Source of the DNA: Anaerolineae bacterium
GTDB taxonomy: Bacteria > Chloroflexota > Anaerolineae > Caldilineales > Caldilineaceae
Assembly (NCBI GenBank): GCA_030432295.1
Contig: JAUIHI010000002.1
Span: 186,001-250,000 of the forward strand
DNA: 64,000 bases
Direction of reading: 5' to 3'
Numbering within the stretch: position 1 is the stretch's first letter; each line of letters starts with the position of its first letter. Under the pieces are notes generated by a model. The model did not search any database, was not told where the DNA came from, and saw nothing but the letters and a program-made list of their open reading frames with translations. A program made the translations under genes and the position numbers. This document shows, piece after piece, positions 3,540 to 52,391 of the stretch.

Positions 3540-3971
3540 CTAAAAGTCCTCGGCGGTGGGCGGCTCGTCCATAATATAGAAGGGATAGACGATACTGCGT
3601 TCGTCGTGGGTATTTTTGATCTGGTAGCGAATATCGGTCAGAATCACGCTGTCGTCATAACTGGTATTACGCAGAATCTCCACGGCGGTGACATCGACCC
3701 GGGGTTCCCACATACGCAGGGCTTCGTGGACATATTCGATCAACTGGGCTTCGGTGGCAGCGTTGCGGGGGGCAAACATCAACTCCCAGACCCGACAGCC
3801 AAACTCCGGGCGCATCACCCGCTCCCCGGGGATCGTCTCCAGAATAATGCGGATGGACTGCTCGATCTCCATCTGTCCCTGGGACATTGCGACGCCGCCC
3901 TGGGCGTTGAGTTGAAGCGGCCAGTTCAATCCCTGGCCGATAAATTCCCGGTTGCGTATATCCTCTGCCAT
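3540..3971 (-). CDS. gpW/gp25-like baseplate wedge protein
   Basis: This is a small (143 aa) member of the GPW_gp25 family, which nucleates the sheath at the baseplate. The core includes SIRIILETIPGERVMRPEFG and VWELMFAP, followed by a C-terminal strand pattern ending PFYIMDEPPTAEDF. The reading frame is open upstream to a TTG at 3986. The ATG at 3971 is preferred because GAGGA lies 6 bases upstream, while the intermediate ATG at 3977 touches that site. It sits between PAAR and baseplate J in the injection-system operon. Confidence 0.9.
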   Translation of the reverse strand: MAEDIRNREFIGQGLNWPLQLNAQGGVAMSQGQMEIEQSIRIILETIPGERVMRPEFGCRVWELMFAPRNAATEAQLIEYVHEALRMWEPRVDVTAVEILRNTSYDDSVILTDIRYQIKNTHDERSIVYPFYIMDEPPTAEDF

Positions 3972-3993
3972 TGCCATTCCTCGCAAAGAGCTT

Positions 3994-4127: not shown

Positions 4128-4421
4128 CTACGGCCCAATCAGCACAGTGGGGAAACCCATCGCAATCGTCCCTGGCGGCCCCACACAGATGGTGACATCG
4201 CCCATGCGGGCTGCGGGTCGGCCACCGATTAGAACCGTAATCCCACCGGGCGGAGCAATCACACCGCCCACGTGGGGCACAAGCACCGTAACCAGTGGGC
4301 AGACGTGGGGGTCACCCACACAGGCGGCCGGTTGACCCCCGATCAGAACCGTCGGGTTGCCCATGACGATGGAACCGCCGTGGGCTGTCGGGTCGCCCAT
4401 ACGGGCTGCGGGTTGTGGCAT
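4128..4421 (-). CDS. PAAR-domain spike tip protein
   Basis: This 97-residue PAAR protein would form the sharpened tip that caps the VgrG spike. It contains repeated PAAR-type segments: PAARMGDPTAHGG near residue 4, PAACVGDPHVCP near 32 and PAARMGDVTICV near 69, alternating with GNPTVLIGG, GGITVLIGG and GFPTVLIG strands. The His and Cys residues of these turns are candidate metal ligands. The TGAGGA used as its Shine-Dalgarno overlaps the stop codon of the upstream VgrG gene, suggesting coupled translation. No effector domain is fused to it. Confidence 0.93.
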   Translation of the reverse strand: MPQPAARMGDPTAHGGSIVMGNPTVLIGGQPAACVGDPHVCPLVTVLVPHVGGVIAPPGGITVLIGGRPAARMGDVTICVGPPGTIAMGFPTVLIGP

Positions 4422-4432
4422 AGTATCGTTCC

Positions 4433-6265
4433 TCAGTTCAGTTTAATCAGCGCGCCCTGGACGACGACCATCGCTCCAGCTTTGAATGTGCCCATCGTAC
4501 TTGCGTTCACTTCGGTGGTCAAGCCCTTGGCAGTCAATGGCCCCTGGGATTCCAGATTCATAATCGCGCCCTTCATCTCGGCCTTGGCTGTAGCCTGCAT
4601 CGAATAATTAGCCCCAGCCTTGATCTTTGTGTCCATCGTACTCTCGATGTTGACCATCCCTTTGGCCTTGATGTTGACATTGCCACCGGCATCAATGTTG
4701 ATGTCCTGCTGGGCTGTAATGCTGATACTGTTGGTCTTGGTGTCGATGACAATCTCGTTCCGCTCCGACTTATCCCGGATCAGAATCTGCTCTTGACCGC
4801 TGGTGTCATTGAGGACAATAATGTGACCGCTGCGGGATTTGATGATGCGTTCGGTAATTCTGCTGCCGTCGTTGACCTGGCTGGTAGGCTTGGGCGGCGG
4901 ATCCTTCTTATTCCAGAGTGTGCCGATCATATAGGGCCGGTTGGGGTCCCCGTGTTCAAAGGCAATCAGCACCTCGTCGTCCACTTCCGGGATGTAGTAG
5001 AAGCCCCGATTCTTGCCCGCGGCCGGGGCAGCGATCCGTACCCAATCGCTCTCGATGGGCTGACTGTCTTTGTCGAGCAGCCAGGGGTACTGGACTTTGA
5101 TCCGCCCCAAATTTTCCGGGTCGGAAAAATTGGTTACCATCGCGGGCACAACCCCATTGAATCGATTGCCATAGAAGGCCCGCTCGTTGCCTGCTTCCAG
5201 CAGGCCAGTCAGGGAGTTGGTGCGACGACCCGTGACCGAAAAATGGGTCTCCCAGCGACCGGTACGCCGGTAGACGTGACGCACAGCGCTGACCACATAC
5301 TCGCCCGAATAGTCGGTCAATTTGGCTTCCCGGATATTGATCTTGACCGGACGCCCAACCTGAATCTCCGCATTGCCAAAGGCCACCCCTTCGGCCTGAG
5401 TAAATGCACTGTCCACATCGCTCATATAGCCAGCAGCAATCGCCTTGGCTGAGTTTACATCCTGCACGGGCATATTGACAATCGCGACCGGTGCGTCGTC
5501 TTTGAATGCGCTCTTGGCAAAGCTGCCACCTGCGCTATAGGTCGGCGCAGACTTCAATTTACTGTCCGGTGTCGCCTTACCGACGATCTCCTTCTTTTGC
5601 ACCTGATCCCAGCTATAGACAGAGACTTCCTTTGGCTGGTGTACAGCCGTAACCCGAGGCCGGAAGCTCAAGAGGTTGTCTCCCCAGGTCAGTTCCGTGG
5701 CCTGGCCTTCCTTCGACGAGGCGGGCATGAAGTTGAATTTGCCATCCTGCACAAAGACTTGGCAACCCAACTGCTCCGCCCGCATAAGCAACCATTCCAT
5801 GTTGGTCTGGTTGTACTGAATCATAAACGTATGGGTGATGACAGAGGGTAGCTCGATAGTGCCAATGGTGACTTTTGATTCCCCCAGCATCATCCGTATG
5901 ATGTCTGAATCCGACTGTTCCAGGAAAGTACGGGACTTTTTGCCCCGGTGCAGGCGATAGGACTTGTCGTAGGCCTGCACCATCAGGCTGGCCTTGCCCC
6001 CACGCCCGAAGTTTGGCTCCAACCCTGTAATCTCCCCGGTGAAGAGTACCGCGCCGCTGCCGTCGGCACCGGCCTTCACCTCAATTGGATCGCCGATCTT
6101 GAATTTGTCCACCACAGCCAGGTCTGGCGCATCGGAATGCAGGGTGATCGTACACATCTCCGGCACGCGCATGGAGGAATCGACGACGATCTCTTCAATG
6201 GCGTCAGCCAGGATCAGGTCACTGACGGCAAGATCGAATGTAAGTCGCTCTGGCAAATCGGCCAT
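4433..6265 (-). CDS. VgrG-like spike protein (late control D / gp5 fusion)
   Basis: This 610-residue protein resembles Pvc8/VgrG proteins, which form the trimeric needle hub at the tube end. Residues ~1-330 fit the gpD-like part, with VSVYSWDQVQKKEIVGKA. Residues ~370-450 contain the gp5 OB-fold core, with VTNFSDPENLGRIKVQYPWL and VDDEVLIAFEHGDPNRPYMI. The C-terminus is a repetitive beta-helix (DTKTNSISITAQQDINIDAG and following) typical of needle extensions. No C-terminal toxin is visible. The PAAR gene follows 11 bases downstream. Confidence 0.93.
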   Translation of the reverse strand: MADLPERLTFDLAVSDLILADAIEEIVVDSSMRVPEMCTITLHSDAPDLAVVDKFKIGDPIEVKAGADGSGAVLFTGEITGLEPNFGRGGKASLMVQAYDKSYRLHRGKKSRTFLEQSDSDIIRMMLGESKVTIGTIELPSVITHTFMIQYNQTNMEWLLMRAEQLGCQVFVQDGKFNFMPASSKEGQATELTWGDNLLSFRPRVTAVHQPKEVSVYSWDQVQKKEIVGKATPDSKLKSAPTYSAGGSFAKSAFKDDAPVAIVNMPVQDVNSAKAIAAGYMSDVDSAFTQAEGVAFGNAEIQVGRPVKINIREAKLTDYSGEYVVSAVRHVYRRTGRWETHFSVTGRRTNSLTGLLEAGNERAFYGNRFNGVVPAMVTNFSDPENLGRIKVQYPWLLDKDSQPIESDWVRIAAPAAGKNRGFYYIPEVDDEVLIAFEHGDPNRPYMIGTLWNKKDPPPKPTSQVNDGSRITERIIKSRSGHIIVLNDTSGQEQILIRDKSERNEIVIDTKTNSISITAQQDINIDAGGNVNIKAKGMVNIESTMDTKIKAGANYSMQATAKAEMKGAIMNLESQGPLTAKGLTTEVNASTMGTFKAGAMVVVQGALIKLN

Positions 6266-6500: not shown

Positions 6501-7181
6501 TCAGGTCAGCGGGACCAACCGCAACACCTGGCCGGCCCGCACATCCGACGGATCGTCCAGATTGTTGGTCTCTGCGATGTGCCGCCAGGCCGCGGCCGAG
6601 CCATATTCCTGATACGCGATCCAGTCCAGCGTCTCGCCTTCCAACACAGTGCGCACTTTGCGCGCCAGGCTGCGCGAGGTGGGGTTCTGATAGGGCAGAG
6701 TATTGGCGTCATCTGCCTCCACAAAATCGACCGTCACCTTCGCCCGCAAGGGCTTGCCAGATGCATCGAACAATTCGTAGGTGACGGAGACCTGCTTGAC
6801 ATAGACCTCGTAGGATTTGTACTCACCCCACACGAACTGGCATTTGGGTGGTCTTGGCTCCTTTGCGTCGATCGTCTTATCGATTTCGGTAAAACGCACC
6901 AACTGTTCAATGTCAGTGGTAATATTTGTGCTGCCCTGCTTGCCCAATTCCTTCAATAGCGTTGGCATCGTTCCATCAAAGATCACATCACTGATCTTAA
7001 ATGTGCCCGACTTACCGCCACCGAAATCCATATCCGGATTGTCGCTGGTGGGTTTGCTTGTCTTTGTCCACTTCACCGCTTTGGAGAAAGTAACCGTCTC
7101 CGGGTTGAAGGTCAGATAGACCATTTTATTGGCATACTGGCCTTCTTTACACAAAATATAGGATTGCTTGAACTCTGACAT
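6501..7181 (-). CDS. LysM-containing CIS tube/hub protein (Pvc7-like)
   Basis: This 226-residue protein matches the injection-system tube-linker family that joins the tube initiator to the spike. The N-terminus reads KMVYLTFNPETVTFSKAVKW, the family start pattern. Residues ~170-226 form a LysM-like module beginning VRTVLEGETLDWIAYQEYG and ending AGQVLRLVPLT. In this family LysM probably acts as a structural module, not a peptidoglycan anchor. It lies between the giant DUF4157 gene and VgrG. A 235-base spacer (6266-6500) to VgrG carries no gene that I can see. Confidence 0.88.
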   Translation of the reverse strand: MSEFKQSYILCKEGQYANKMVYLTFNPETVTFSKAVKWTKTSKPTSDNPDMDFGGGKSGTFKISDVIFDGTMPTLLKELGKQGSTNITTDIEQLVRFTEIDKTIDAKEPRPPKCQFVWGEYKSYEVYVKQVSVTYELFDASGKPLRAKVTVDFVEADDANTLPYQNPTSRSLARKVRTVLEGETLDWIAYQEYGSAAAWRHIAETNNLDDPSDVRAGQVLRLVPLT

Positions 7182-7228: not shown

Positions 7229-10200
7229 TCACAGTGGCCGCCGTTCTCGTTCCATCTCAATCATACGTCTGATCAGCGGGTATATTCTCTCCGCCAAACC
7301 ATCCCAGTCTGGTTCCTGATCGTTGTCCATCTCATCATCTATCTCGTCATCCACATCCGAGTCCCCGCCCTCGTCTGGGCTGCGCTGTATGCGCTCTTGC
7401 AAGGCTCGCTGCAACGGATAGTGGGTCGTCGCCCCAGTGGAGCCACCAGCCGGAGCCACAGCCGTCTGCGGATCGGAAGCGCCTGGTGTCCCTTCCGCCA
7501 ATCCATTTTGCGCCAGACTGGGCCGATCCAAAAAGCGCTGGACGACCGGCATCGATTCAGTGGAGACCCCGTCCAGCACCGGCCCCTCGGCCTCTGCCCG
7601 TTGGACATCCACCCCACCAGCGAGAGCAGGCAAAGAGGCAAGGGATTGCCCCAGCACGGCCCGACGCCGAACCACAGGCAGATCACCCGAAGCCGACGAG
7701 GCAAATCCACTCCCTGTCCCGCCGGAACCGACACGAGTGTCGATGCGGCCCTGACTGCCATTGCCCACCGCGCGGGTAGCCTTAACAGGGCCGGGGCTAC
7801 TGCCAGGCCCGTTGCTGGGACGGGGAGCCAGGGGTTCCCGCTGCACAGATCCCTGCCGCAGCAGAGCCTGGATGCCCTGCTCCACCTGCCCGGCAGCCTG
7901 CTCTTCCCGCTGTACACTCCCCCGTAGTTGATTGACAGAAGGCAGCGATAGGGGCATAAGCCCTGCCCCTTCCGCCCCGTTCTGGGGCTGAGCCATCTGT
8001 TCCGAGCGGCGCACGCTTGGATTCGTCCCCACCGCCACGTGGGTCAACTCATGGCCGAGCAGGGCCAAATTATCGGGCCGATCCAACTGGGCCAGCGCCG
8101 AACGCTGCAAATAGACCGTCTGGCCGTGGGCCGCCGCCTCCACTCCCAGGGGTTCCAGCCCCGCGGCCTGCAAGCGCACACCGCTAAAATCCCGCTGCAA
8201 GACCCGCTCCATTAGCGTGCGCGGACGCCGGGGCAAAGGCATCCCTCCGGAAGGTCCCCGTTGCAGTTCCGCCGCAGCCCGTTGTATGGCTGTCGTCCGC
8301 TGGTTGCCAGCGGACCGCTGCGCCCCTCTGGTAGGAGAAACGGGCGTCCCTTCCCTGCGCTTGAAACGCCAGCCCCGCTCCTCCAGCAGATCAACCGTCG
8401 CCGACGCGGAAACAGGCCCCGTCGAAGACCCCGTAGAGGCCCCCGCAGCAGAAGTAAAATCCTGGGCGGGCTGACCCAAAGAAGCCGATACAGCACGGCC
8501 GCTGGCAAGACCGGCTTGGCTCAAAGGCATCTCACCGCCAAAGTCACCACCCGCGGCCCCGCGCTGCACAGCCGCCGAGGGCGAGGCGGATGCCTGTTCG
8601 CCGCGGCTCAAACGCCAGCCAAGGGCATCCAACAGACCCACAGGCTCATCAGCCCCCGCGAAATCCTGGGCGGGCCAACTCTGGGAGACAGGGGCAAAAT
8701 GGCTGGTGGCAAGACGGCGTTGGGCCAAAGCAGCCACAGATCGACTGCCCGCGGCTATCGAAGCAGCTCGTTGCACCGGGCGGCGAGACGCAGAAGCGTT
8801 GACAGAAGCCGGAGTGCCCGGTGGGGAAATCCGCGGTGTAGGCGGTCGCTGTGCGGACGAACGCTGGGTAGACGGACCAGCGGTAGAAACCACTCCCCTC
8901 GGTTCTGCTCCCCTGCCCCGACGCATAACCGCCTCCACCTGTTCGGCGACACGCTCCTCCTCTGCCAGACTCATCTGCACCAACTGACGGGAGAGACGCT
9001 GGGTGAGGGAAGGCGCAAGCGGATGGGCCAGGGGCATATCCGTTCTATCGGGCGAACGCTGCACCCGATTCTCGGCCAGCAAAGGGGCGGCCCCGCCCGC
9101 GGCCACGTGGGTCAATTCGTGGCCGAGCAGGGCCAGCGAATCGGAGCGGTTCAGGTCCGCCTGTGCCCGATCCAAATAGACAGTATTTCCCTGGGCCGCG
9201 GCTTCGATCCCCAAAGGGCCAAGCGAGGCCATCTGCACCCGTACCCCTGCAAAATCCCGCTGCAAAACCCGCTCCAAAAGCGTGCGGGGTCGGTCAGGAA
9301 GGGGGTGGCTGTGGCCTGTCGCCAGCCCGGTCAACGCCCGCTGCACCCTTTCCACCGGGGCAGCCGAGGCATCCGGGACCGGGCGGGAACGCTTGAAGCG
9401 CCAACCGCCCGCTTCCAAGCGCTGCACAGCCGCGGCAGCGCTCTGGGTCGGCCCAATCCGGCCAGCCCCGGTCACAAGCGCACGCTGCCGGGGCGTTTGA
9501 GGCGAAATAGTTCCAGAGACGACGGTGCCTCGTCTTTGACTCGGGGCAGTTGCGCCAGCCCGCTGGGAAAGAGTGGGCGTATCAGCCGCCTCCCCAGCAG
9601 ACGGCGGCGCAGACTGGGCTGCTGATGACCCACCCGTATCCGTCCGGGTAGATGCGCGCAGCAATCGATTCAGGGCTAATTCCAAAGGAACGAAAGCCGC
9701 TGGAATCGAAGGCTGGGTGGCCTCCCGCGCTTCTGGCCGATTCCCAGGCGATGGCAACAACCCGCTAGGCCGCAACAACTCATCGCCGCTGATAGCAGCC
9801 GGACCAGCCAAATCCCGGCCAGAATGAACCGTTGACGATTCTAATGTCGGCGTCTCTAGCGTTGACGGCTCTGCGTCGTGGAGCAAATCAGACCGCCACA
9901 GATCAGAGACCGGCTGCACCTGGTGGCGGTTCTGCTGGCGGACTGTCAGGTTCGACGCCGAACGGCCAATTGCACCGGGCGAAAGGAGGGTCTTCGGCGT
10001 TGGCGCAACCTCATCCGCAAAGGCTTCCCCAGGGGCAAAGCGCTGCGCATCGATGGGTGCTGATCGTTGCAGCAACCTGCGTCGGATGTCGCCAAAATCC
10101 CGGCGCAACACCAGCTCGCTCAACGGACGCACCGGAGCAGAGGCCGGAGCAGGCCCAGAAAGAAATTGGGGAATGGAGCGAGAAGCGTCCAACCGCCAAC

Positions 10201-13200
10201 CAGGCGTAGGTATATCGCCGCGGCTCTTATCCGAAGTTCGCTGGCGAGGCAGACCAACAGCGTCGGTCGGTTGTCGGGTCAGATCGAGCAGTGTAGCCGT
10301 CAATTTCGCGCCCCGGACAGGTCTGTGTGCAGGTTTGGGGTCTTGCCGAACGTCCCCGGCGATTGTTACAGACCCCCGTTGCAGCGAAGCGGACTGGGCC
10401 GAGGGCGTTCTCCGAGCAGGAGTGGACACCGCTTCTGACTCCAGCGCTGCGTCCGCAGTGGCTGGCGACAGCACCTGTTGGGGTGAATCCAACCGGCCAG
10501 AAGCCACAGGTCGGCTCAGAGGCAGTTCCACCCGCTGGTTTAGCGCAGCGGATGTGGAGGAAACGGCCAGGCGCGCCGAAAGTTCGCTGGGCGGTGCAGA
10601 TGCGAAGAATTGGCCCAAAGAATCCAGCCGATCCGATACTGGGGCCGTGTCCCTTCGCTGGACAGGCTCGGCAGTCCACGCCGAGGAAGCGGGTGTAACG
10701 GAGACAACCCGACGAAGCTGCTGGCTCAGTTGGAGCGCGGCCTGGGCAGTCTCTCCGGGCTGGTGGCGGCGTTGCAGCAGTCGGGGCACGGGGAACACAC
10801 CCACAGAAGGGCGCTCTGTGCCCGCGGCCGGGAGCGGTTGCCTCTCTGCAACCGAAGCAGCAGCGGCTACGCGTTGGCCCGTCCCGCTCCTTACTTCCCT
10901 CTGCGGGGGGTAGACCCGTCGCTCCACCCGTTCCAGCAAAGTAGGCCCAGAGCCGGGAACAGAACGGGGCTGGGAACGCGCCACCACCTGCCGCTCAACA
11001 CTCGGCGCTGGTCGTCGGCGCACCTGGGCAGGACGGCCCACAGCCATCCGATCCACCAGCACCTCCCCCGCAGCCGGAAGCGCAGCAGATAGTACGCGAG
11101 GAGTGGCAGGCCCATCCGGTGACTGCGCCAGAAATTGGGCAGGAGATTGGGTCAGGGATTGAGCCGGGGACTGAGCAGCCCATCGATTGGCCGGGGCCAA
11201 AGGTAGAGGCGTATCCACGCCTGCCTGGGCCGTACTAAGCGCAATGCCAGTCGGGATCGACAACGCCGACTGGGCAAAAATGGCCGGTTCGGCCAAATCT
11301 GCCAATGGGGCCGGTCCAGCCGCAAAAGCAACGGATTCGGGGGGACGAACATCGCCGGTCAACTGTGCCGAGCGCCAGAGACGGGAGACAGGTTCCAGCC
11401 GCGTATGGGCCGCGGCCAGACGCTGGGCCACAACCCCACTTTCGCCCAAACGGGTAGTCCGGAGCGTAAAAGTTGGGAGGCCGGACATCGCCCCTACAAA
11501 GCGAGCAGGTGACTGTCGAGGAGAGGCCCCTGCCTCTGTCCCAGCCGAAACAGGTGCGCGGGCTGGTCGCCCCAGTCGGGCGGCGGGCGGCAGCGGGCGT
11601 TCAGATCGACGGGCGGGCAGACGCAACCCCCGGGGGCTGTCCTGTAATGTTGCGGGCTGTTCTGGCTGTGGCGTATGGGTGGCCCCGGCCCGCTGCAATA
11701 AAAGCCGGGTGTGGGCGCGGGCCGAAGTCGCAACCGGACGTTCATCCGTCCTGGAGACCGGGCGCAGGTGGAGAGGACGCAGTGGCGCAGCCGAGGGCTG
11801 AAGAGGTTGGCGTTGTAATGTAGCGCCACTCCCTGGGCCAGGCGATGGCGCATCCTCGGAGGAAAGGGTCTGCGGGCGTTGTGTCTGCGGACGTTCCATC
11901 CGCGGCTGTTCTGTGCGAAGGTGGGTGGATGCCGGTAGCGCGGCCAGGGCCAACGGTCCACGGCCAAGCAGGTCATTACGGGTTCCCGCAAAATCCCGGC
12001 CCGTCACCCGTTCAAGCAGCGTCGGCGCAGAACGGGTAGCCCCCGTTCTATTCACCCGTCGAGTGGGGGGCGCAGAGAGCCGCTGGAAGGCCGGTGCGGG
12101 GCGGGCAGTGGCTAGCGTCGGGGGAGCAGGCTGGGCCAACTCGCCGGATGCAGCAGGCGTTCGGTTGGCACGGCGAAAACGTGCCAGGTCCAACTCCAGA
12201 TCAGGCAGAAATGCGCGGCCGAGTCGGCTGGACGCAGATGTTTGTGCCTGCGAAAGTGGCGGACTCTGCGACCCCAGCAGAGCACCGGCATCGGGCCAAG
12301 TAGTGGCAAAAGCTGTAGACAAAGTTGTGGGTGAGCGGCGCAAAGGGCCATCCGACTCAGCGGGCAAAAGGGCAGATGCCACGGGTTGACTGCGCAGCAG
12401 CGTACTGCGCCACGCGCCAGAGACCGGCTCAAATTCATGCCGAAGTTCCGCCGGGCTAGGGAGCGCGTCCAACTCCAACCCGGCCAATCCAACCCGCTGG
12501 ACAGACTCTGCCCGTTCTGTATCCGCCGGTTCTTCTATGCCCGCCGACTGTCCTGCGCCCGCTGGATGTTGAGTGCCCACCGGCCGTTGAGTGACCACTG
12601 GCTGTTCAGTGACCACTGGCTGGACGCTAACCGGCTCTTCAGATCGGCTCTCGGCCTGGGCTTGGGCAGCCACATCGAACGGGGATGTGGCAACCAGGCG
12701 CATGACAGTGGGCAATGGACGCAGTAGAAGACGCTGTAATACGGACTGGGTGCGAGCACTTTCAAACGATTGCAGGGCGGCTGATTGGTGTGTGCCGGTT
12801 TGACTGCTCGGACGGAGCAAGGCAGAAGAGGGCGAATCATCGGGCGACCCATTGGTCAGCCTGGGCTGCACAGCGGCACGAGTCGCGGGTTGCTCAGCCG
12901 CGGGTCGCACAACCGCCTGTCCACGCCGGGATTCCCCTAGCTGGCGCGCAGGTGATTCTGGCTGGAAGCTACCCGGCGCTTCTGATTGGCTCTCTGCCAG
13001 GGCTGGTAGGGGCGTGTCGAAGGGCGCTATGTCTGCCAGGCGCATAACCGTAGGCGATGGACGCAGAGGAAGACTTTGCAATCGAGCCAGGGCAGGCGAG
13101 CGTTCGAGCGGCTGACGGGCGGCTGATTGACGAGCGGTTGATTGGCTGGTACTCGTCTGGCGGCGCGGACGAAACGGGGCAGAAGGTCGCGGCCCATCGG

Positions 13201-14989
13201 TCAATGTGCGCTGCACCACAGCGCGGGCAGCGGTTCGCACAGAGGCGGGTCGCTCAGAAGCGGGTCGTTGAGTAACCGGGCGCTGGGCCACGGGTTGCCG
13301 GGCCGCGGGCCGCACTTCGGCCTGTCCAGGCCGGGATTCCCCACTGCGCCGCGCAGGTGGTTCTGGTTGGTCAGGCGTATCAACAGGCGCTTCCGTTTGC
13401 GGGGGATCGACTCGCCACCGCAAACGCTGGGGCACAGCCAGGGCAAAATCGGCCAAACTCACCGGGGCCAGGCGCGATCCTCCTTCGGATTGACGCTGTA
13501 GCGGGCTGGCCTGTGGGGGCCGGTCTATCGCCGACAAGGCGGGAAGCATTGCATCGAGCGCCGATTCCGACACTGAGAGGGCAGGTGTGGACGACACATC
13601 CTGTGAAGCGGATTGATGCTGAAAATCAGGCTGGTATGGCAGAGCGTTCGGACCAGTAAGTGATGTGCGAGATGGACCGGTTGCCTGGCGATGGACGTGT
13701 TCGAGCAAAATTTGTGGTCGGCTGGCCAGGAGTTGGCCGGACGCGCTCAATGCCAGGCGACCAACCGCGCGCTGGGCAATGGACGGCACAGCGGGCTTGG
13801 ATGTGGCCCGATTTTCGGGCCGAGAGCCGATCCGAGGCCGGAGTCGGTTGGCGACCGGCTGTGAGGCTTGGGCTGGTCGTTGTCGGGTCAGGCTTCGCAC
13901 AAGATGTGGGCGCACAGCCTGTGCGCGCACCGACCGCCGAACAGAGCGCACGACGGTCGGTCTACTTTTGACAGGGCTAGAAAGTGGTGCCCCCGCAGGC
14001 AGGGTAGGCTGGGAGGTCGACGGCTGAGTGGCCTCTGCACTTGTGGGCGCAAACCAATCCGGGCCGCTATTTTCAGTCTCAGGGAAGAGCCAATCCAGAC
14101 CCGGCGGACCGGTGTCAAATTGGGGGGGTGGGGCAGCTTCGCTGTCGCCGCCACCCTCGCTTTCTCCGCCGTCCTCGCCCGCTGAGTCGGGAATCGAAAG
14201 GTATTCCACTTGGCGGGCCATGCGCCGACGCATCATCCGGGGTGAAGGTGTGGCGGGCTGTCCGCTAGGCTGTTGAGCAGCCGGTGGCGCTGGCGGTACG
14301 GGTGGCGTCTGCCCGGGAAGCTGGCGCGCGATGGGTTGATCGGTTGGCCGCGGGGGCGCGGGTCGAGCCGGTCGGTTGCTGGGGTGTTGAGCCACAGGCC
14401 GCACATCCGGCTTCTCCGTGTCCTGGGATTTGACAAAATTGGGTACGGAGGAGGGCGACAGAGATTCAAACTGACGGGCCTCGGCCACCCGGCGGCGAAT
14501 CTCTTCCATTGTCATGGCTGGCGCGGCGTTAGCTGGTGGGCGGGCCGGTGTAGCCGCAGGGCCGCCCACTTCGCCGGCCAGGGGCATTTCCAGGGCCTCC
14601 TCCTGGCGGTTGATCTTCAGAAGCGCGCTGATATTATTGGCCCCCATATCCCAATTCTTGAACATTTCTTCGGAGAATTTTTCGAAGAGATTGGGCGAAA
14701 CCGTGCCAACATTGGCCTTCCACGCGGTGGTGCGGGTAACGATGCGGTGAAAGCGGCGCAGAATTGCCAGGGTGGAGAGAAAGCTCACACTCTCGTCTGC
14801 CCGGCGACGCATCAGACGGCCCACCAGGGAGCCGCGATCAGCCGGGGTGTTGGCTCCATCCAACATCTCCCGCACCCAGGGAGAAAGGGACCGGGTCATG
14901 CGATCCGCGCTGTCGATGGCGCGCAGGGCAAAAGTGCCGTCGGTAGGACGTGCTGTGCCGCGGGGTCGATTCTCCGTTTGTTCCGCCAT
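7229..14989 (-). CDS. Giant modular DUF4157 (eCIS core domain) protein, 2586 aa
   Basis: The N-terminal ~140 residues are a folded helical domain, with SVSFLSTLAILRRFHRIVTR and EEMFKNWDMGANNISALLKI. A very long Pro/Gln/Arg/Ser/Ala-rich, probably disordered region follows. Five related 'ERVxxRDFAGVR' modules occur near residues 993, 1353, 1628, 1908 and 2263; the second is degenerate. Only the last two are followed by a zinc-peptidase-like HELTH motif, near residues 1956 and 2312, in the context LALLGHELTHVA. Other recurring words are PVSxxWRS and GWRFKR. The C-terminus is an acidic stretch and a charged helix. DUF4157 is the hallmark 'eCIS core' domain. Here the gene sits between tube and LysM genes, where phages encode the tape measure. 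A role as cargo protease, tape measure or both is inference. Confidence 0.85.
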   Translation of the reverse strand: MAEQTENRPRGTARPTDGTFALRAIDSADRMTRSLSPWVREMLDGANTPADRGSLVGRLMRRRADESVSFLSTLAILRRFHRIVTRTTAWKANVGTVSPNLFEKFSEEMFKNWDMGANNISALLKINRQEEALEMPLAGEVGGPAATPARPPANAAPAMTMEEIRRRVAEARQFESLSPSSVPNFVKSQDTEKPDVRPVAQHPSNRPARPAPPRPTDQPIARQLPGQTPPVPPAPPAAQQPSGQPATPSPRMMRRRMARQVEYLSIPDSAGEDGGESEGGGDSEAAPPPQFDTGPPGLDWLFPETENSGPDWFAPTSAEATQPSTSQPTLPAGAPLSSPVKSRPTVVRSVRRSVRAQAVRPHLVRSLTRQRPAQASQPVANRLRPRIGSRPENRATSKPAVPSIAQRAVGRLALSASGQLLASRPQILLEHVHRQATGPSRTSLTGPNALPYQPDFQHQSASQDVSSTPALSVSESALDAMLPALSAIDRPPQASPLQRQSEGGSRLAPVSLADFALAVPQRLRWRVDPPQTEAPVDTPDQPEPPARRSGESRPGQAEVRPAARQPVAQRPVTQRPASERPASVRTAARAVVQRTLTDGPRPSAPFRPRRQTSTSQSTARQSAARQPLERSPALARLQSLPLRPSPTVMRLADIAPFDTPLPALAESQSEAPGSFQPESPARQLGESRRGQAVVRPAAEQPATRAAVQPRLTNGSPDDSPSSALLRPSSQTGTHQSAALQSFESARTQSVLQRLLLRPLPTVMRLVATSPFDVAAQAQAESRSEEPVSVQPVVTEQPVVTQRPVGTQHPAGAGQSAGIEEPADTERAESVQRVGLAGLELDALPSPAELRHEFEPVSGAWRSTLLRSQPVASALLPAESDGPLRRSPTTLSTAFATTWPDAGALLGSQSPPLSQAQTSASSRLGRAFLPDLELDLARFRRANRTPAASGELAQPAPPTLATARPAPAFQRLSAPPTRRVNRTGATRSAPTLLERVTGRDFAGTRNDLLGRGPLALAALPASTHLRTEQPRMERPQTQRPQTLSSEDAPSPGPGSGATLQRQPLQPSAAPLRPLHLRPVSRTDERPVATSARAHTRLLLQRAGATHTPQPEQPATLQDSPRGLRLPARRSERPLPPAARLGRPARAPVSAGTEAGASPRQSPARFVGAMSGLPTFTLRTTRLGESGVVAQRLAAAHTRLEPVSRLWRSAQLTGDVRPPESVAFAAGPAPLADLAEPAIFAQSALSIPTGIALSTAQAGVDTPLPLAPANRWAAQSPAQSLTQSPAQFLAQSPDGPATPRVLSAALPAAGEVLVDRMAVGRPAQVRRRPAPSVERQVVARSQPRSVPGSGPTLLERVERRVYPPQREVRSGTGQRVAAAASVAERQPLPAAGTERPSVGVFPVPRLLQRRHQPGETAQAALQLSQQLRRVVSVTPASSAWTAEPVQRRDTAPVSDRLDSLGQFFASAPPSELSARLAVSSTSAALNQRVELPLSRPVASGRLDSPQQVLSPATADAALESEAVSTPARRTPSAQSASLQRGSVTIAGDVRQDPKPAHRPVRGAKLTATLLDLTRQPTDAVGLPRQRTSDKSRGDIPTPGWRLDASRSIPQFLSGPAPASAPVRPLSELVLRRDFGDIRRRLLQRSAPIDAQRFAPGEAFADEVAPTPKTLLSPGAIGRSASNLTVRQQNRHQVQPVSDLWRSDLLHDAEPSTLETPTLESSTVHSGRDLAGPAAISGDELLRPSGLLPSPGNRPEAREATQPSIPAAFVPLELALNRLLRASTRTDTGGSSAAQSAPPSAGEAADTPTLSQRAGATAPSQRRGTVVSGTISPQTPRQRALVTGAGRIGPTQSAAAAVQRLEAGGWRFKRSRPVPDASAAPVERVQRALTGLATGHSHPLPDRPRTLLERVLQRDFAGVRVQMASLGPLGIEAAAQGNTVYLDRAQADLNRSDSLALLGHELTHVAAGGAAPLLAENRVQRSPDRTDMPLAHPLAPSLTQRLSRQLVQMSLAEEERVAEQVEAVMRRGRGAEPRGVVSTAGPSTQRSSAQRPPTPRISPPGTPASVNASASRRPVQRAASIAAGSRSVAALAQRRLATSHFAPVSQSWPAQDFAGADEPVGLLDALGWRLSRGEQASASPSAAVQRGAAGGDFGGEMPLSQAGLASGRAVSASLGQPAQDFTSAAGASTGSSTGPVSASATVDLLEERGWRFKRREGTPVSPTRGAQRSAGNQRTTAIQRAAAELQRGPSGGMPLPRRPRTLMERVLQRDFSGVRLQAAGLEPLGVEAAAHGQTVYLQRSALAQLDRPDNLALLGHELTHVAVGTNPSVRRSEQMAQPQNGAEGAGLMPLSLPSVNQLRGSVQREEQAAGQVEQGIQALLRQGSVQREPLAPRPSNGPGSSPGPVKATRAVGNGSQGRIDTRVGSGGTGSGFASSASGDLPVVRRRAVLGQSLASLPALAGGVDVQRAEAEGPVLDGVSTESMPVVQRFLDRPSLAQNGLAEGTPGASDPQTAVAPAGGSTGATTHYPLQRALQERIQRSPDEGGDSDVDDEIDDEMDNDQEPDWDGLAERIYPLIRRMIEMERERRPL
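12640..13345 (-). repeat. Internal duplication within the giant DUF4157 gene
   Basis: Two successive segments encode related sequence. The first contains RRSGESRPGQAEVRPAA and LPLRPSPTVMRLADIAPFD. The second contains RQLGESRRGQAVVRPAA and LLLRPLPTVMRLVATSPFD. The offset is about 405 bases at the first word and about 342 at the second, so the copies differ by indels. The end of the second copy also contains short VVTEQPVVTQRPV-type repeats. Confidence 0.75.
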
Positions 14990-14994: not shown

Positions 14995-15435
14995 TTATGC
15001 TTTCGCTATCTGAAAATAGGTGTAGGCCAATTCCAATTCTTCCATCGAGAGTTCGTTGCTGTCAGCTTTAAGCTGTGGCCCAGTCCATTTTACCGGGTAG
15101 GCGTGGAAAATATTCCACGTAAAGGCGGTTTCACCGGATTCGTTGGCCAGAGAGATAGTAATGTTCCTCAGGGTAGGCAGAACAGTGTTTGTACCGGCGT
15201 TTTCGAGCAACCAATCCAGCAACACCAGATCGATCAGCCCCCGTTTGAGGGTAACATTCGAATAGCTGAGGCGGCCCGGCAACTTCACTTCGTAATTGGT
15301 GCGCCCCCCCTCGGTGATGCCTTTGCTTTCCCGGGTCACAGTCAGGCCATTGCATTCCGTAAACTCGGCCGCGTTTACATTGTCGATCTCAACATAATAG
15401 CGCCAGGAAACCGCCCGGCTGACAATCTCGGACAT
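14995..15435 (-). CDS. Tail tube protein, gp19/TIGR02241-like (paralogue 3)
   Basis: This 146-residue protein is of the T4 gp19-like tube family, whose hexameric rings form the inner tube or its baseplate-proximal initiator. Family marks are FTECNGLTVTRESKGITEGG near residue 25, YSNVTLKRGLIDLVLLDWLL near residue 58 and ending PVKWTGPQLKADSNELSMEE. It ends 5 bases before the giant DUF4157 gene starts, implying translational coupling. By position between the other tube genes and the hub, it may be the tube initiator (Pvc5-like). Which paralogue is structural cannot be settled from sequence. Confidence 0.9.
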   Translation of the reverse strand: MSEIVSRAVSWRYYVEIDNVNAAEFTECNGLTVTRESKGITEGGRTNYEVKLPGRLSYSNVTLKRGLIDLVLLDWLLENAGTNTVLPTLRNITISLANESGETAFTWNIFHAYPVKWTGPQLKADSNELSMEELELAYTYFQIAKA

Positions 15436-15456: not shown

Positions 15457-15633
15457 TCAACTGTGACGCCAACCGCCCCACTGGTCACCCAAACCGCTGC
15501 GCTCCCTCTCAAAGTGCAAGTCTCGCCCCAGCAGTTTCATCACCTTTTCAGCGATGATACGCAATTCCAATTCATCGAAATCCTCCAAGTCCACCCGGAG
15601 AAGCGCGTCGTCGTCCTCGTCGGGTTCTTCCAT
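15457..15633 (-). CDS. Small acidic injection-system protein (58 aa)
   Basis: This short ORF begins MEEPDEDDDALLRVDLEDFD and ends with a basic, Gly/Trp-rich tail (GDQWGGWRHS). The ATG is separated by one base from the stop codon of the upstream tube gene, and a strong GGGAGG lies 6 bases before it, so it is very likely translated. It occupies the place of the small Pvc6/Afp6-type proteins between tube paralogues, but I do not recognise the family by sequence. A predicted helix (EELELRIIAEKVMKLLG-like) covers the middle. Confidence 0.7.
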   Translation of the reverse strand: MEEPDEDDDALLRVDLEDFDELELRIIAEKVMKLLGRDLHFERERSGLGDQWGGWRHS

Positions 15634-15634: not shown

Positions 15635-16510
15635 CTATCCTCCCTCGGCAGTGCTGAATGAGGTTGCTTCCACGCTGCCGCTGCCAGCAGCGACCGTGCG
15701 CGTAATAGATTCAAAGACGAGAGTAACCTCTTCGAAGGCGAAATCGCCACTTTTGCTATCAAATTGGGGACCGGCGATTTTGGAGGGCCACGCGTTGGTG
15801 AGTTCCCAACGAATGGCTTGGGTGGTGAAATCCCGGGTCCAGGCGGTGATTGTAACGGGCAAGCGCGCGGCTGCGTACTTTTTGGGGCTATAGCTGCCTG
15901 TGTTGAGCGATGGGCCTTCGTGGTCCATAAACCAGTCCCACATTGCCGTATCTGTGGTCAACAGTCGTTTCAATGTAATCGGCCCCCATTTGATCCGGCC
16001 AGGGATCATTTGGGTGACAGCCTGATACTGCTGGTTGACAAATTTGTGTTCGATGTAGTCCCGCTCGAAATCCAGGCCGCTCACATCCACGGCATAGGCG
16101 ACAAATTGGCCGGCGCCTGTGCCAAAGGTGATGCTGAATTGGTAGGCGATGAGCGGGTCGAGGCGCGTGCCTGTGATGCCCAGCGGCGCTTCTGTGCGGC
16201 TTACACTGGAGCCAAGCCCAGTGAATCCCCCACCGGTTGTGTTGGCGGGTGGGCCGCGAAAAGTGCCAGTGCCCCCGCCAGAAGTTGCAGTCGCCCCACC
16301 GCTAGTCGCGCTGCTACTAACTTCACCGGCAGCACTGCCTGTGCCGCTCTCGCCACCACCGGTTTCCGGGGCACTACCCGCGCCAGCAGCCGTAGAAGTG
16401 CTGCCGCCGCCATCCCCCGAAGCCGCGCCTGCGCCGCTGCCACCACCGGCACCGCCACCGCCCGCAGCACTACCACCACTGGCAGCCCCACCCGCTGTCG
16501 ATTCAGCCAT
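15635..16510 (-). CDS. Tail tube protein with Gly/Ala/Ser-rich N-terminal extension (paralogue 2)
   Basis: This 291-residue protein has two parts. Residues 1-~110 are an almost pure Gly/Ala/Ser/Thr tract (ASGGSAAGGGGAGGGSGAGA and similar). Residues ~118-291 form a gp19-like tube domain with VDVSGLDFERDYIEHKFVNQ, WGPITLKRLLTTDTAMWDWF and NAWPSKIAGPQFDSKSGDFA. A strong GGAGAGGAG lies ahead of the start. The low-complexity extension is unusual for a tube subunit and should project from the ring into the lumen or an end. It could cap, plug or bind cargo, but that is inference. Confidence 0.88.
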   Translation of the reverse strand: MAESTAGGAASGGSAAGGGGAGGGSGAGAASGDGGGSTSTAAGAGSAPETGGGESGTGSAAGEVSSSATSGGATATSGGGTGTFRGPPANTTGGGFTGLGSSVSRTEAPLGITGTRLDPLIAYQFSITFGTGAGQFVAYAVDVSGLDFERDYIEHKFVNQQYQAVTQMIPGRIKWGPITLKRLLTTDTAMWDWFMDHEGPSLNTGSYSPKKYAAARLPVTITAWTRDFTTQAIRWELTNAWPSKIAGPQFDSKSGDFAFEEVTLVFESITRTVAAGSGSVEATSFSTAEGG

Positions 16511-16543: not shown

Positions 16544-16711
16544 TCACGAGCGTATAGTCTCGTTCAGCCTACGGTTGATTCTGGCGATCTGCCGCACCCA
16601 GATTTGTCGTTCGCCATGCTCCATAGACATCACCTGATCGTGGGGCCAATGAAAATGATAGGCGACGTAGGCTACCTCCTCCCGTAGGCGATCCAAGGGG
16701 TAGCCGGCTAC
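16544..16711 (-). CDS. DUF6760-like ORF, probably reached by -1 frameshift or a TTG start
   Basis: This 55-codon frame encodes GYPLDRLREEVAYVAYHFHW and a second part, EHGERQIWVRQIARINRRLN. It resembles short DUF6760-type proteins beside tail genes. The frame opens in -1 relative to the upstream gene, with its first codon sharing the last G of a G7 run. No ATG or GTG precedes the conserved part. The only possible independent start is a TTG at 16696, which has no good Shine-Dalgarno. Frameshifting on G-GGG-GGG would fuse it to the zinc-ribbon protein, like lambda G/GT tail chaperones. Confidence 0.75.
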   Translation of the reverse strand, partial: VAGYPLDRLREEVAYVAYHFHWPHDQVMSMEHGERQIWVRQIARINRRLNETIRS

Positions 16712-16717
16712 CCCCCC
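16697..16717 (-). promoter_or_regulatory. Candidate -1 ribosomal frameshift site: G7 slippery run plus stop-codon palindrome
   Basis: On the minus strand the chaperone gene ends GAT CTG GGG GGG TAG. The seven G bases (16711-16717) are phased as G-GGG-GGG, exactly the X-XXY-YYZ pattern. Slippage by -1 reads G-TA GCC and enters the next ORF. An 18-base perfect palindrome, GGGGTAGCCGGCTACCCC (16697-16714), spans the stop codon and could form a 7-bp hairpin with a CCGG loop. No classical downstream pseudoknot is obvious. Confidence 0.65.
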
Positions 16718-17073
16718 AGATCGGCCAGGTCCACAGCAAATTCAGAGCCGCACTCAGGGCAGGTGACTTGGATAGTGGTGCGGCCCTCTTCGTTGATCGT
16801 GCGGTACAGAGCCTGCAAATAGGCCAGGTCCGCGGCGAAGAGATTTTCGACGATGCTGGGGGAGATGCTTTCCAGGGTTCCCAGACGGGTGACGACCCGG
16901 GCCAGAAGGGTGATCACCAGATAGGCCTGGTTGGTGCGCACCCGCATATCGCGCAGGGGGGCGATCTCGTCCATGGCCGTGGCCAGACGCATAGTGCCCT
17001 TTTTGTGGACATTGCCTTCCTGATCGATATAGCCCATAGGAAGGGTAAAATCAAACTCGGTTTGGAAGCTCAT
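16708..17073 (-). CDS. Zinc-ribbon tail assembly chaperone-like protein
   Basis: This 121-residue protein belongs to the 'phage tail assembly protein' type seen beside eCIS tube genes. It has a N-terminal FTLPMGYIDQEGNVHKKGTM segment, a helical core LLARVVTRLGTLESISPSIV and a C-terminal CPECG half zinc ribbon. The ATG at 17073 follows AAGGAG by 7 bases; the frame is also open from a TTG at 17076. In phages the gene at this position makes the chaperone that assembles tube on the tape measure, with a frameshifted longer form. The G7 run before its stop codon supports that reading here. Confidence 0.75.
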   Translation of the reverse strand: MSFQTEFDFTLPMGYIDQEGNVHKKGTMRLATAMDEIAPLRDMRVRTNQAYLVITLLARVVTRLGTLESISPSIVENLFAADLAYLQALYRTINEEGRTTIQVTCPECGSEFAVDLADLGG

Positions 17074-17283: not shown

Positions 17284-17778
17284 TTACTTCTCCCGGTAGA
17301 AGCCTTCGTGGACGAGTGTAACCTCTTCCACACCGAAATCATTGCCACTCGAAGTCAGGTCCGGGCCGCTGACTTTGGAGGGCCAGGCGTTGTAGAAGTT
17401 CCAACGGGAGACCTCGCGAAAGTTACGGTCGTACATAATAATCGAGCAATTCTTGCGGATTTCTTTGAAATCGCCCCGCTCCACATCGGCCCGCCAATCC
17501 CAAATCTGCATATCGGCGGTGATGCCGCGCTTGAGGGTCACATCGTTGTATTTGATGATACCCGGCGCTTTGAAGACAAAGGACTTGCCATTCTTGTTGA
17601 CCAGTTGGGATTCCACGATGTCGTGTTCCGAACCGATGCCGCTACAATCCGAGAAGTAGCCTTCCAGCACGCCGTCGATCTCCAGCCCGAAGTTGAATAC
17701 AATCAGCGGATCGTCGGTAATCCCAGCGCCTGTCCCAGTACGAGTACCTTCGGGGACCAGTGGTTGTTCTGTTGCCAT
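17284..17778 (-). CDS. Tail tube protein, gp19-like (paralogue 1)
   Basis: This 164-residue tube protein lies immediately after the sheath gene and is the best candidate for the main inner-tube subunit. Marks are CSGIGSEHDIVESQLVNKNG near residue 45, YNDVTLKRGITADMQIWDWR and NAWPSKVSGPDLTSSGNDFG near the end. AAGGAG lies 10 bases before the ATG. The following terminator (17237-17272) isolates it with the upstream sheath gene, which fits a need for many copies of both proteins. Confidence 0.92.
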   Translation of the reverse strand: MATEQPLVPEGTRTGTGAGITDDPLIVFNFGLEIDGVLEGYFSDCSGIGSEHDIVESQLVNKNGKSFVFKAPGIIKYNDVTLKRGITADMQIWDWRADVERGDFKEIRKNCSIIMYDRNFREVSRWNFYNAWPSKVSGPDLTSSGNDFGVEEVTLVHEGFYREK

Positions 17779-17818: not shown

Positions 17819-19438
17819 TTACGCGCTCAGTTCCGGATTCCATTGGCTGATGCGGAAGATGACAAACTCGGCGGGCTTCACCGGCGCAATGCCGACTTCG
17901 ACCACCACCCGGCCCAACTCCCGGCTCTCAGCCGGATTGGTCTGCTCGTCACACTTCACATAAAAAGCCTGGGATGGCGAAGCGCCATACAGAGCGCCTG
18001 CGTTCCACTGGGTTGTGAGGAAGGAACCCACATCCCGGCGAATCTTGCCCCACAGTCGGGGATCGTTCGGCTCGAAGACAGTCCATTGGGTGCTGTTTTC
18101 GATGGTCGTCTCGATCATATTGAAGAGACGGCGCACAGAGACGTAGCGCCAGAGTGCGTTGCTGGTCAGCGTACGCGCACCCCAGACTCGAATGCCCATC
18201 CCGGCGAAAGAGCGGATGCAGTTGACGCCGATGGGGTTCAGAATATCCTGCTCACCTTTGGTCACACTGTAGGACAAGCCGGTCGTGCCCATCACCACTT
18301 CATTGGCCGGGGCCTTGTGGACACCCCGGGTATTGTCGGTGCGTGCCCAGACACCCGCCATAAAGCCGGACGGAGGCATATTGATGGAACGGTCCGTGGA
18401 GAGGTCCATCACTTCGATCCAGGGGTAGTACATCACCGCGTAGGCGCTGTCGAAGCCAGTGATGTCCTGCCGCCAGGCTTTGACTTCCTGGGGGTTGAGG
18501 TTGGGCGGCGTGTCGAGAATCGCCATCCGATCACCCAGCCGCTCGCAATGGCCCACCAGTGCGGTCTGCACAGCCTTCACCATCTTCAGGTCCAACTTCT
18601 CGCCAGGCATCGTTGTCATCAGATCAGGCACGCAGATTATGCGGGCATCGTCCAGCACTTCCAAGCCCTCGACACCGGTACGGGCGGCCACATCCCCGCG
18701 GAATTCGCTGGGGGTGGGAGCAGCCAGGAGCTTCTGCTCGATGGAGAGAGATTGCTGCTGCTCTGTAGGCCACAGTTCGGCCAAGGAGCGGGACTGGTCG
18801 GGGATCACAATGTCGATCAGTTCCGAGGCTTTGTTGCTACGATAGGCAACCCGCACCTGGCGAGCGCCCTCTTCGGTCTCGGTCTCTTCCAGCCGCACTT
18901 CCTTGCGGACATCCTTCACCTGCCAGTCGCCTGCGTTGGTGCGCTTTTCGACAATCACATCAAAGGGTGCCAGACCGTCAGCATCCTCTTCTTCATCGGC
19001 AATGCCACCGGCCCCATTGGCCGAGGTGGCAATGCGGACCCGGTAATCCATACCGCCCAGACCCGACTTGCGGGAGCGGGCGATCAGAGCCGGTTCGCTA
19101 TCCCCGTTGAGCAGACCCGCCTGGGCTGGCGGAATCTGGCGCAGACTGACGATGTAGCAGCGGGAACCACCGTTGGCAAAGAAGCCCTGCACGGACAGAG
19201 GCAGATAGGCCCCATCCACCAGCCCGCCGAACTTCTGGGAATACTGAATCCAGTTGGTGATGAACGTCGGTTGGTTGGTCAAATCGGTGACGATCTGCTC
19301 CCCATCCACCAACCGTACATCCTCAGCCTTTTCGGTGAAACCGACAAAGACAGCCGTGGACGTATTGGTCGCTTCAATTGGGCGGGGGCCGGTGTCAATC
19401 TCTTCGACGTAGACACCTGGCGAAAGATATTCAGGCAT
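17819..19438 (-). CDS. Contractile tail sheath protein
   Basis: This 539-residue sheath protein contracts around the tube to drive it through a target membrane. The N-terminus, MPEYLSPGVYVEEIDTGPRP, is the sheath signature, and GFFANGGSRCYIVSLR lies near residue 80. The C-terminal third has TRGVHKAPANEVVMGTTGLS, INCIRSFAGMGIRVWGARTL-like sequence and ends VEVGIAPVKPAEFVIFRISQ, again typical. Only one sheath gene is in this window, while Afp/PVC-type systems carry several. It is 40 bases upstream of the first tube gene. Confidence 0.96.
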   Translation of the reverse strand: MPEYLSPGVYVEEIDTGPRPIEATNTSTAVFVGFTEKAEDVRLVDGEQIVTDLTNQPTFITNWIQYSQKFGGLVDGAYLPLSVQGFFANGGSRCYIVSLRQIPPAQAGLLNGDSEPALIARSRKSGLGGMDYRVRIATSANGAGGIADEEEDADGLAPFDVIVEKRTNAGDWQVKDVRKEVRLEETETEEGARQVRVAYRSNKASELIDIVIPDQSRSLAELWPTEQQQSLSIEQKLLAAPTPSEFRGDVAARTGVEGLEVLDDARIICVPDLMTTMPGEKLDLKMVKAVQTALVGHCERLGDRMAILDTPPNLNPQEVKAWRQDITGFDSAYAVMYYPWIEVMDLSTDRSINMPPSGFMAGVWARTDNTRGVHKAPANEVVMGTTGLSYSVTKGEQDILNPIGVNCIRSFAGMGIRVWGARTLTSNALWRYVSVRRLFNMIETTIENSTQWTVFEPNDPRLWGKIRRDVGSFLTTQWNAGALYGASPSQAFYVKCDEQTNPAESRELGRVVVEVGIAPVKPAEFVIFRISQWNPELSA

Positions 19439-19507: not shown

Positions 19508-19576
19508 GTAAAACGGTAATCAGTAATCAGTGCTGGCGAACAGACGAACTCGCACTGTTTACTGTTCACCGTTTAC
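19508..19576. repeat. Imperfect intergenic palindrome
   Basis: The arms at 19508-19532 (GTAAAACGGTAATCAGTAAT and five more bases) and 19553-19576 are largely complementary. It lies between the DUF4255 gene, whose stop it touches, and the sheath gene. Confidence 0.6.
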
Positions 19577-20439
19577 TCTTGTATGTCGTAATCCTCGGAA
19601 GGCACATTAATCACACGACGAACGGATTCTTCTTTCCCTCGGCTAATTTCCAGTGTATACGCTCCTTCCCGCAGATTACCGATTACAAATGTGCCATCTG
19701 CGGCCACAGGCACATCCCGTTCCAGTTCCAGCACAGACATCTGAACATCTTGCAATGAGGCATACTGCAAGCGCCCCCCAATCGTCCAGCGCTTCTCCGG
19801 CTCCGGCAGATCCGTCTCCTCGCCCGATTGCGTGGGCAGGCGGCGCTTCTGCTCGCGCAGGGAACTCACCACCATATCCTCCACACGCAGTTCCCGCACC
19901 CGCACCAGCGGCACAGTAATCGGCAGGTGTGGGTCCATCGTCAACGTCACCATACAATTGAGGCAGGGACGCAGTTCGTTGTCCATCACGCCCCACAGGT
20001 CAGGCGGGTTGAAGGTCGTGTCGTATTGGGCCACACTCAGCGCCACCGGACGGGGCTGCCTGCGCAACGGTGCGGGCAAAAAGGACTCTGGAATCTCCCG
20101 GTGTCGCAAAAAGGCAAGCAGCGTGCGGGCCAACAGCCGGTGTTCATCGTCCGGCTCGGATGCCCAGGCCGTAATCATATAGTGCAGGTCCACTCGTGCT
20201 TCGGGCCGTTGCAGTGCCGTCTGTCGCCGGTCCGGGTGCTGCTGTTGCCGCTGGGTGTAACTCTGGCGTAGCTGGGCGTTCTCCCGCACATCGTGCAAAA
20301 AAATGTTCAGCGTGGGCCGATTCAGCCGGGCCGACCACTCCCGGCGGGGCTGGTCAAAGGCAATCTCGATCTCGTTGTTGCGGATGGGAATCTCTTCGAT
20401 GAGCAGCCGCCGCAGGGTTTCGTCGATTTCGTCAAACAT
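19573..20439 (-). CDS. DUF4255 / Pvc16-like tail terminator protein
   Basis: This 288-residue protein matches the DUF4255 (Pvc16 N-terminal) family, which caps the top of the sheath and tube and stabilises the particle. The N-terminal part reads IEIAFDQPRREWSARLNRPT and NIFLHDVRENAQLRQ, and TAWASEPDDEHRLLARTLLA follows near residue 92. Residues ~240-285 resemble a small beta-sandwich of the carboxypeptidase-regulatory kind (VPVAADGTFVIGNLREGAYT). That extra domain is common in this family. It is encoded between the ATPase and sheath genes. Confidence 0.9.
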   Translation of the reverse strand: MFDEIDETLRRLLIEEIPIRNNEIEIAFDQPRREWSARLNRPTLNIFLHDVRENAQLRQSYTQRQQQHPDRRQTALQRPEARVDLHYMITAWASEPDDEHRLLARTLLAFLRHREIPESFLPAPLRRQPRPVALSVAQYDTTFNPPDLWGVMDNELRPCLNCMVTLTMDPHLPITVPLVRVRELRVEDMVVSSLREQKRRLPTQSGEETDLPEPEKRWTIGGRLQYASLQDVQMSVLELERDVPVAADGTFVIGNLREGAYTLEISRGKEESVRRVINVPSEDYDIQE

Positions 20440-34866: not shown

Positions 34867-34870
34867 AGCT

Positions 34871-52374: not shown

Positions 52375-52391
52375 GGATGCTCGCTATGGCG

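Follow-up and report, generated by a model that had tools for sequence, protein, structure and literature searches.

In phage lambda, tube subunits are recruited by the tail assembly chaperones gpG and gpGT, which also bind the tape measure (PMC5009743), and GGGGGAA is an established shift motif of phage chaperone genes (PMC10885494). The tape-measure proteins (TMPs) of diffocin, 80alpha and T5 could be resolved in no more than the final 20-35 residues, which form trimers and, in diffocin, lie against the spike (PMC10996793). As for contractile injection systems (CISs), the particles of the Streptomyces system were all found identical in length and its tape-measure gene was noted to be absent (PMC12237407), and the haloarchaeal system has been reported to possess neither plug nor tape measure (PMC11566945). 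The present work deals with a stretch of 64,000 nucleotides from a Caldilineaceae genome (Chloroflexota; contig JAUIHI010000002.1, positions 186,001 to 250,000), referred to here as the window, which contains a complete CIS operon. The largest open reading frame (ORF) of this operon encodes a protein of 2586 residues, denoted here as X. Since X occupies the ruler slot, behind a phage-type ruler chaperone with a conserved frameshift signal, it probably sets the length of this CIS, and we regard its working as a tape measure as reasonably likely.

Several described CIS proteins resemble X. Tme of S. davawensis (PMC11126660) is likewise the largest ORF, adjoins baseplate genes, contains DUF4157, is about 70% disordered and occurs in several phyla; TMP ancestry has already been proposed for it. 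DUF4157 lies near the N-terminus of Tme, whereas in X it is found near the C-terminus and doubled (aa 1895-2319 of 2586), and X, which fits Tme in length and synteny, lacks its transmembrane helices and C-terminal nuclease domain. The Cis6/Afp6/Alg6 plugs share with X the position between tube initiator and hub and a C-terminal helix, but they are short (about 65 aa) and show no sequence match to it. The Afp14-type CIS tape measure (CIS_TMP) has the same function as that proposed for X, but it is encoded at another position and has no homologue in loci of the window type. The Sle1/Sle2 system of Streptomyces lividans (PMC13277306) comprises a TMP-like lumen protein linked with a DUF4157 partner; unlike X, this protein is encoded upstream of the sheath, is coiled-coil and is separate from DUF4157.

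When compared with phage TMPs and their G/GT chaperones (lambda G/GT, P2 E/E', mycobacteriophage tail assembly chaperones), the locus is alike in gene order, in PHROG_508 homology, in a -1 slippery site, in the long ORF and in the conserved C-terminal helix. On the other hand, X is rich in Pro, largely disordered, may carry eCIS-core modules and shows no detectable homology to TMPs, and the chaperone is separated from X by the tube initiator and a small helix gene. Tape measures, G/GT chaperones and DUF4157 effectors are already known, whereas three things appear to be new: that CIS operons of several phyla conserve a frameshifted chaperone, that X can be recognized by its C-terminal helix irrespective of DUF4157, and that its distribution is complementary to that of the gene at the Afp14 position.

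A Phage-Type Chaperone Precedes X

The proposal is carried by what the sequences show: the operon, the homology of the chaperone, the conservation of the slippery site and the -1 ORF, a helix with which all slot proteins end, and the lack of any gene at the Afp14 position. Some 60 CIS loci from Chloroflexota and relatives were compared, their genes being labelled with iterated profiles. X follows the tail assembly chaperone and precedes the hub and baseplate genes, an order as in phage tails and the one that the first-pass annotation of this DNA had claimed; profiles and gene labelling bore it out. Two features escaped that annotation, namely the chaperone pair with its frameshift (16544-17073) and a helix protein of 58 aa (15457-15633).

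The chaperone matches the phage tail-assembly-chaperone family PHROG_508 (E=2.7e-8), as do 12 of its 13 aligned relatives; its AlphaFold2 (AF2) model had a predicted local distance difference test score (pLDDT) of 57 and gave no fold match. The gene ends in CTG GGG GGG TAG, and the run of G lets the -1 frame read straight into DUF6760 (PF20546; match at 16544-16690, E=3.7e-14), ahead of which this frame of the window contains no ATG, GTG or TTG codon. Of the 46 chaperone genes in the phylum set, 33 carry an in-phase slippery heptamer within their final 24 nt, compared to 3 of 552 other CIS genes from the same loci; the 46 genes are related by descent, so that the counts are not independent trials, and the control consists of equally related neighbour genes devoid of the motif. 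In 39 of the 40 loci with DUF6760 in the -1 frame, the heptamer is GGGGGGG, GGGGGGA, GGGGGAA or GGGGGAG, with 0 or 3 nt between its end and the stop. These 40 loci span phyla and include cyanobacterial, actinobacterial, Paenibacillus and proteobacterial ones, the loci of other phyla having been read from plasmids. The chaperone and DUF6760 would, from their sequences, form a G/GT-type pair with a -1 frameshift. A text search, whose scope did not extend to subscription papers, found no report of a frameshift or of DUF6760 in connection with a CIS.

The Slot Protein and Its C-Terminal Helix

The slot adjoining the LysM hub holds a long low-complexity protein in around 40 Chloroflexota CIS loci, with lengths from 602 to 2628 aa. 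In loci of the window type this single protein lies between the tube initiator and the hub; in a second subtype it precedes the tube initiator, a shift by one gene, and its helix is related (E=9e-9). The Streptomyces plasmid loci follow this second arrangement. The N-termini of these proteins are unrelated between groups, and the C-terminus is a helix of about 30 residues with the consensus PDLDxLARxVYxxLKxRLxxERER. The profile of this helix detects X in locus after locus, as well as a small protein, some 58-110 aa long and encoded upstream of the tube initiator, whose helix matches that of X with a profile-profile probability of 97.6. Outside Chloroflexota, proteins with such a C-terminal helix were found in Nostoc (524 aa), Paenibacillus and Paraburkholderia. 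The charged C-terminal helix described in the first-pass annotation is real, and it is the sole part of X conserved across phyla; by analogy, the trimeric C-terminal ends of phage TMPs fit a protein conserved only there.

The gene for X was placed correctly from the outset in coordinates and length; it lies on the minus strand, with its ATG at 14989 and its stop at 7229-7231. Pfam identified two eCIS_core (PF13699, DUF4157) domains and nothing more over the cut-off, with 72 bits against a PF13699 cut-off of 22 and with HExxH. The two HELTH modules noted earlier both correspond to PF13699, one motif in each (aa 1957 and 2313), and are metallopeptidase-like as judged by this motif; no toxin domain was found by Pfam, nor any transmembrane-like stretch in X (maximum 19-residue hydropathy of 1.31). 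Given that eCIS_core is present in 20 of 42 complete X proteins, it is a passenger rather than a defining part, and the description of X as a giant eCIS-core protein becomes secondary, as every other slot protein or so does without such a core. As for the remainder, the N-terminal domain claimed to be conserved is so over about 145 residues, but only within the genus or family, with no match outside it among 400 genomes of Chloroflexota; its use as a family marker for X was rejected for this reason, and its AF2 model was of low confidence (pLDDT 51), with nothing usable. The linker, foreseen as disordered, is Pro/Ala/Arg/Ser-rich by composition, with 13% Pro; its repeats are weak and amount to four PVSxxW motifs and partial eCIS-core-like pieces.

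The real spike plug of CISs of this type may be the small helix protein (15457-15633). It begins with a strand-like segment, as described for Alg6, in the relatives L058, L061 and L062, and in locus L085 (5069-5638) its gene is fused to an eCIS_core domain, another sign of eCIS_core modules being plugged onto tail parts. The idea that DUF6760 and the small helix protein are the same was dropped, since their sequences differ. On a Haloferax larsenii plasmid (L189, 1851-8819), an open frame of 2322 aa with an X-type helix at its end, annotated merely as a 177-aa fragment, immediately precedes the LysM hub, and the tape measure or plug missing from the haloarchaeal CIS may be encoded by it.

The distribution of X can be set against that of the AFP-like loci of Chloroflexota, which contain two sheath genes, have the AAA ATPase after the baseplate and lack both the chaperone and X. 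All six AFP-like loci whose downstream flank was fetched have a gene preceding the AAA ATPase, at the Afp14 position, and short plug-like ORFs hold their Cis6 position. The label Afp14 rests on position because this gene matches Pfam CIS_TMP no more than marginally, with E=0.08 in one of the six. The profile of the Afp14-position gene had no match in window-type loci, the window or its left flank, even at E=10, and X showed no homology to Pfam CIS_TMP or to the Afp14-position family. PF19268 had no match anywhere in a scan of 400 genomes and hence cannot show absence. The earlier statement that no other tape-measure gene is visible also held in the 20 kb to the left of base 1, where none was found and where the methyltransferase-, VWA- and FHA-like proteins were named from sequence.

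Proposed Mechanism and the Length of X

The notion of X as a tape measure, already put forward in the first-pass annotation, is strengthened by the frameshifted chaperone, the docking-type C-terminal helix and the lack of an Afp14-position gene. In the assembly, length-setting and ejection steps, which we infer throughout, the G-like chaperone and its rarer -1-frameshift fusion to DUF6760 (GT-like) would hold the unfolded X in solution and supply it with tube subunits. The C-terminal helix of X would dock in the trimeric hub/spike and the remainder would thread the tube lumen, with the tube polymerizing along X until X ends and the Pvc16-type cap then closing it. Upon contraction, X would leave with the spike. 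The two eCIS-core modules lie near the hub end of X and would exit with it, so X is probably delivered material as well as ruler; by analogy with eCIS-core cargo (PMC8894135) and with Tme (PMC11126660), this dual ruler and payload role is plausible.

The lengths of X bear on this mechanism. Intact copies from the family measure 2586, 2589, 2472, 2530, 2628 and 2137 aa, and in a seventh (L131) a frame change, perhaps due to misassembly, interrupts the gene. Conservation in the family covers the initial ~300 residues, the two cores and the C-terminus, and the linker accumulates 300-1600 residues of indels between pairs; despite such large indels, five of the six copies fall within 2472-2628 aa, and their staying within 6% suggests selection on the length of X. 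In a length-compensation test, the ratio of net to expected indels was below 0.7 for all ten pairs without L134 and rose up to 2.9 with L134, a result which is suggestive only. For scale, the diffocin TMP, modelled to residue 817, goes with a length of about 1388 A, or roughly 0.17 nm for each residue (PMC10996793); given a similar conformation, slot proteins of 600 and 2500 aa would correspond to about 100 and 440 nm.

A number of points speak against X being a ruler. The copy of 2137 aa argues against a strict length rule, and the range of 602-2628 aa over the phylum is 4-fold, so that a ruler model holds only if particle lengths differ. The first-pass annotation had named wide length variation among relatives as an argument against a tape measure, and such variation does exist across the phylum, but not among the five of six intact family copies mentioned above. 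About a dozen loci keep the chaperone with neither DUF6760 nor the heptamer; Rhodococcus and Embleya have the chaperone and DUF6760 with no X seen in the stretch examined, and Treponema has neither chaperone nor DUF6760. Searches of PHROGs, Pfam and NCBIfam matched X to no TMP, and it is Pro-rich, not coiled coil. Since homology and coiled-coil content were tested and not found, X is not filed as a member of a TMP family, and the claim is that it works like one.

Beyond the window, the chances appear evenly balanced for a broader proposal: that the many CISs described as devoid of a tape measure (Streptomyces, haloarchaea, Chloroflexota) possess one after all, fast-evolving and mostly disordered, recognizable only by its C-terminal docking helix and by a G/GT chaperone made through a -1 frameshift that is conserved across phyla, and that in some lineages the ruler absorbed effector modules and became ruler plus payload. 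In S. coelicolor, SCO4249-4251 lie unmodelled between tube and initiator (PMC12237407), and from these genes and the plasmid-borne Streptomyces loci we infer the same arrangement there. This would offer a concrete ruler candidate, a chaperone and a frameshift signal for CISs reported to have uniform length but no tape-measure gene. To our knowledge, the phage rulers resolved so far are helical, so a mostly disordered one would be unusual; if true, such a ruler would explain how effector domains can insert into it.

Alternative Explanations

X could be only cargo, a Tme-like effector within the lumen, with length being set by the terminator, the sheath or another gene. Such a role would agree with the two HELTH-bearing eCIS-core modules of X, with the filling of the AlgoCIS lumen by eCIS-core proteins (PMC8894135) and with the behavior of Tme, which has endonuclease activity and is purified together with the spike and the tube initiator (PMC11126660). 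However, it is rendered rather unlikely by the lack of any toxin domain detectable by Pfam and of an eCIS core in half of the slot proteins, and by the occupation of the slot in nearly every locus, whereas effector genes vary; the genome also has five separate eCIS-core proteins elsewhere, and a G/GT-type chaperone would be left unexplained. The chaperone is equally unexplained if X is an overgrown Cis6/Alg6 spike plug, whose C-terminal helix trimer seals the spike and whose remainder fills the lumen incidentally, measuring nothing. X does lie between Cis5 and Cis7, that is, in the Cis6 position, where AFP-like loci have their short plug-like ORFs, and Alg6 consists of a strand and a C-terminal helix, trimeric in the spike cavity (PMC8894135). 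Nevertheless, the second subtype has X before Cis5, and the identification of the X C-terminus as Alg6/Cis6 was rejected after negative results in the PDB profile search (no chain matching the X helices), with DUF5908 and in the profile-profile comparison with short plugs (hhalign probability of 0.4), making a plug improbable.

It could also be argued that the heptamer is a relic or a codon-level coincidence and that DUF6760 is made by re-initiation, in which case the chaperone pair would say little about X. Indeed, most loci of the Streptomyces-like subtype have a GTG that runs into the stop (GTGA). In contrast, the window and about a dozen other loci keep the heptamer with no ATG, GTG or TTG before the domain in the -1 frame, and the excess of heptamers in chaperone genes over other CIS genes given above also counts against this explanation, to which we assign a small probability.

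Operon and Genome Context

Besides X and the chaperone pair, the operon encodes an AAA ATPase, a Pvc16-type cap, a sheath, three gp19 tube paralogues, a LysM hub, a VgrG spike, PAAR, gp25, J and I (Table 1). The tube paralogue at 15635-16510 has a Gly/Ser/Ala-rich N-terminal extension of about 100 residues, odd in a tube subunit.

Table 1. Position of X, its parts and the other CIS genes in the window
Feature	Position	Strand	Basis
Tail protein I	33..1097	minus	PF09684
Baseplate J-like protein	1240..3438	minus	sequence and order
gp25-like baseplate protein	3540..3986	minus	sequence; weak TssE match
PAAR-like tip	4128..4421	minus	sequence, profile
VgrG-type spike	4433..6265	minus	PF04717, PF05954
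LysM hub (CIS_tube + LysM)	6501..7181	minus	PF19266
Slot protein X, proposed tape measure	7229..14989	minus	ORF and translation, slot, gene order
X C-terminal helix, aa 2556-2585, common to all slot proteins	7235..7324	minus	profile
X eCIS_core module 2, HELTH, about aa 2249-2319	8033..8245	minus	PF13699
X eCIS_core module 1, HELTH, about aa 1895-1963	9098..9307	minus	PF13699
X linker, disordered, Pro/Ala/Arg/Ser-rich, about aa 146-1880	9350..14554	minus	composition; divergence with many indels among relatives
X N-terminal domain, aa 1-145, conserved in genus/family only	14555..14989	minus	alignment of relatives
Tube initiator (gp19 family)	14995..15435	minus	PF06841
58-aa protein, C-terminal helix related to that of X	15457..15633	minus	helix profile
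Tube paralogue, Gly-rich N-terminus	15635..16510	minus	PF06841
-1-frame extension encoding DUF6760 (T-like), 55 codons + stop	16544..16711	minus	PF20546
Slippery heptamer GGGGGGG, directly before TAG stop	16711..16717	minus	sequence
Tail assembly chaperone (G-like), 121 aa, C-terminal CxxC pair	16708..17073	minus	PHROG_508
Tube protein	17284..17778	minus	PF06841
Sheath protein	17819..19438	minus	sequence and own sheath profile
Pvc16-type terminator (DUF4255)	19573..20439	minus	PF14065
AAA ATPase	20528..22714	minus	PF00004

No gp19 tube genes besides those of this operon occur in the genome (6.7 Mb, 61 contigs), which therefore appears to contain a single CIS. Far from the operon, the genome encodes five more eCIS_core proteins (599-1141 aa, all with HExxH), four of which are clustered (L011, 9277-18388 of contig C10; L012, 9427-12852 of C55); they are likely orphan cargo. 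In a single-protein scan, the 14 named relatives of the hub came from Caldilineaceae/Litorilinea metagenome-assembled genomes. In two Litorilinea ones (L131, 12093-18000; L132, 2-4681), the hub is followed by an AAA ATPase and an eCIS_core protein, with no spike there, an arrangement that represents either a cargo insertion or a split operon. Finally, the window contains low-GC islands at 32000-36200 and 50000-54000 (41-50% versus about 58%), with a run of plus-strand ORFs at 31791-36241, which are possibly acquired DNA.
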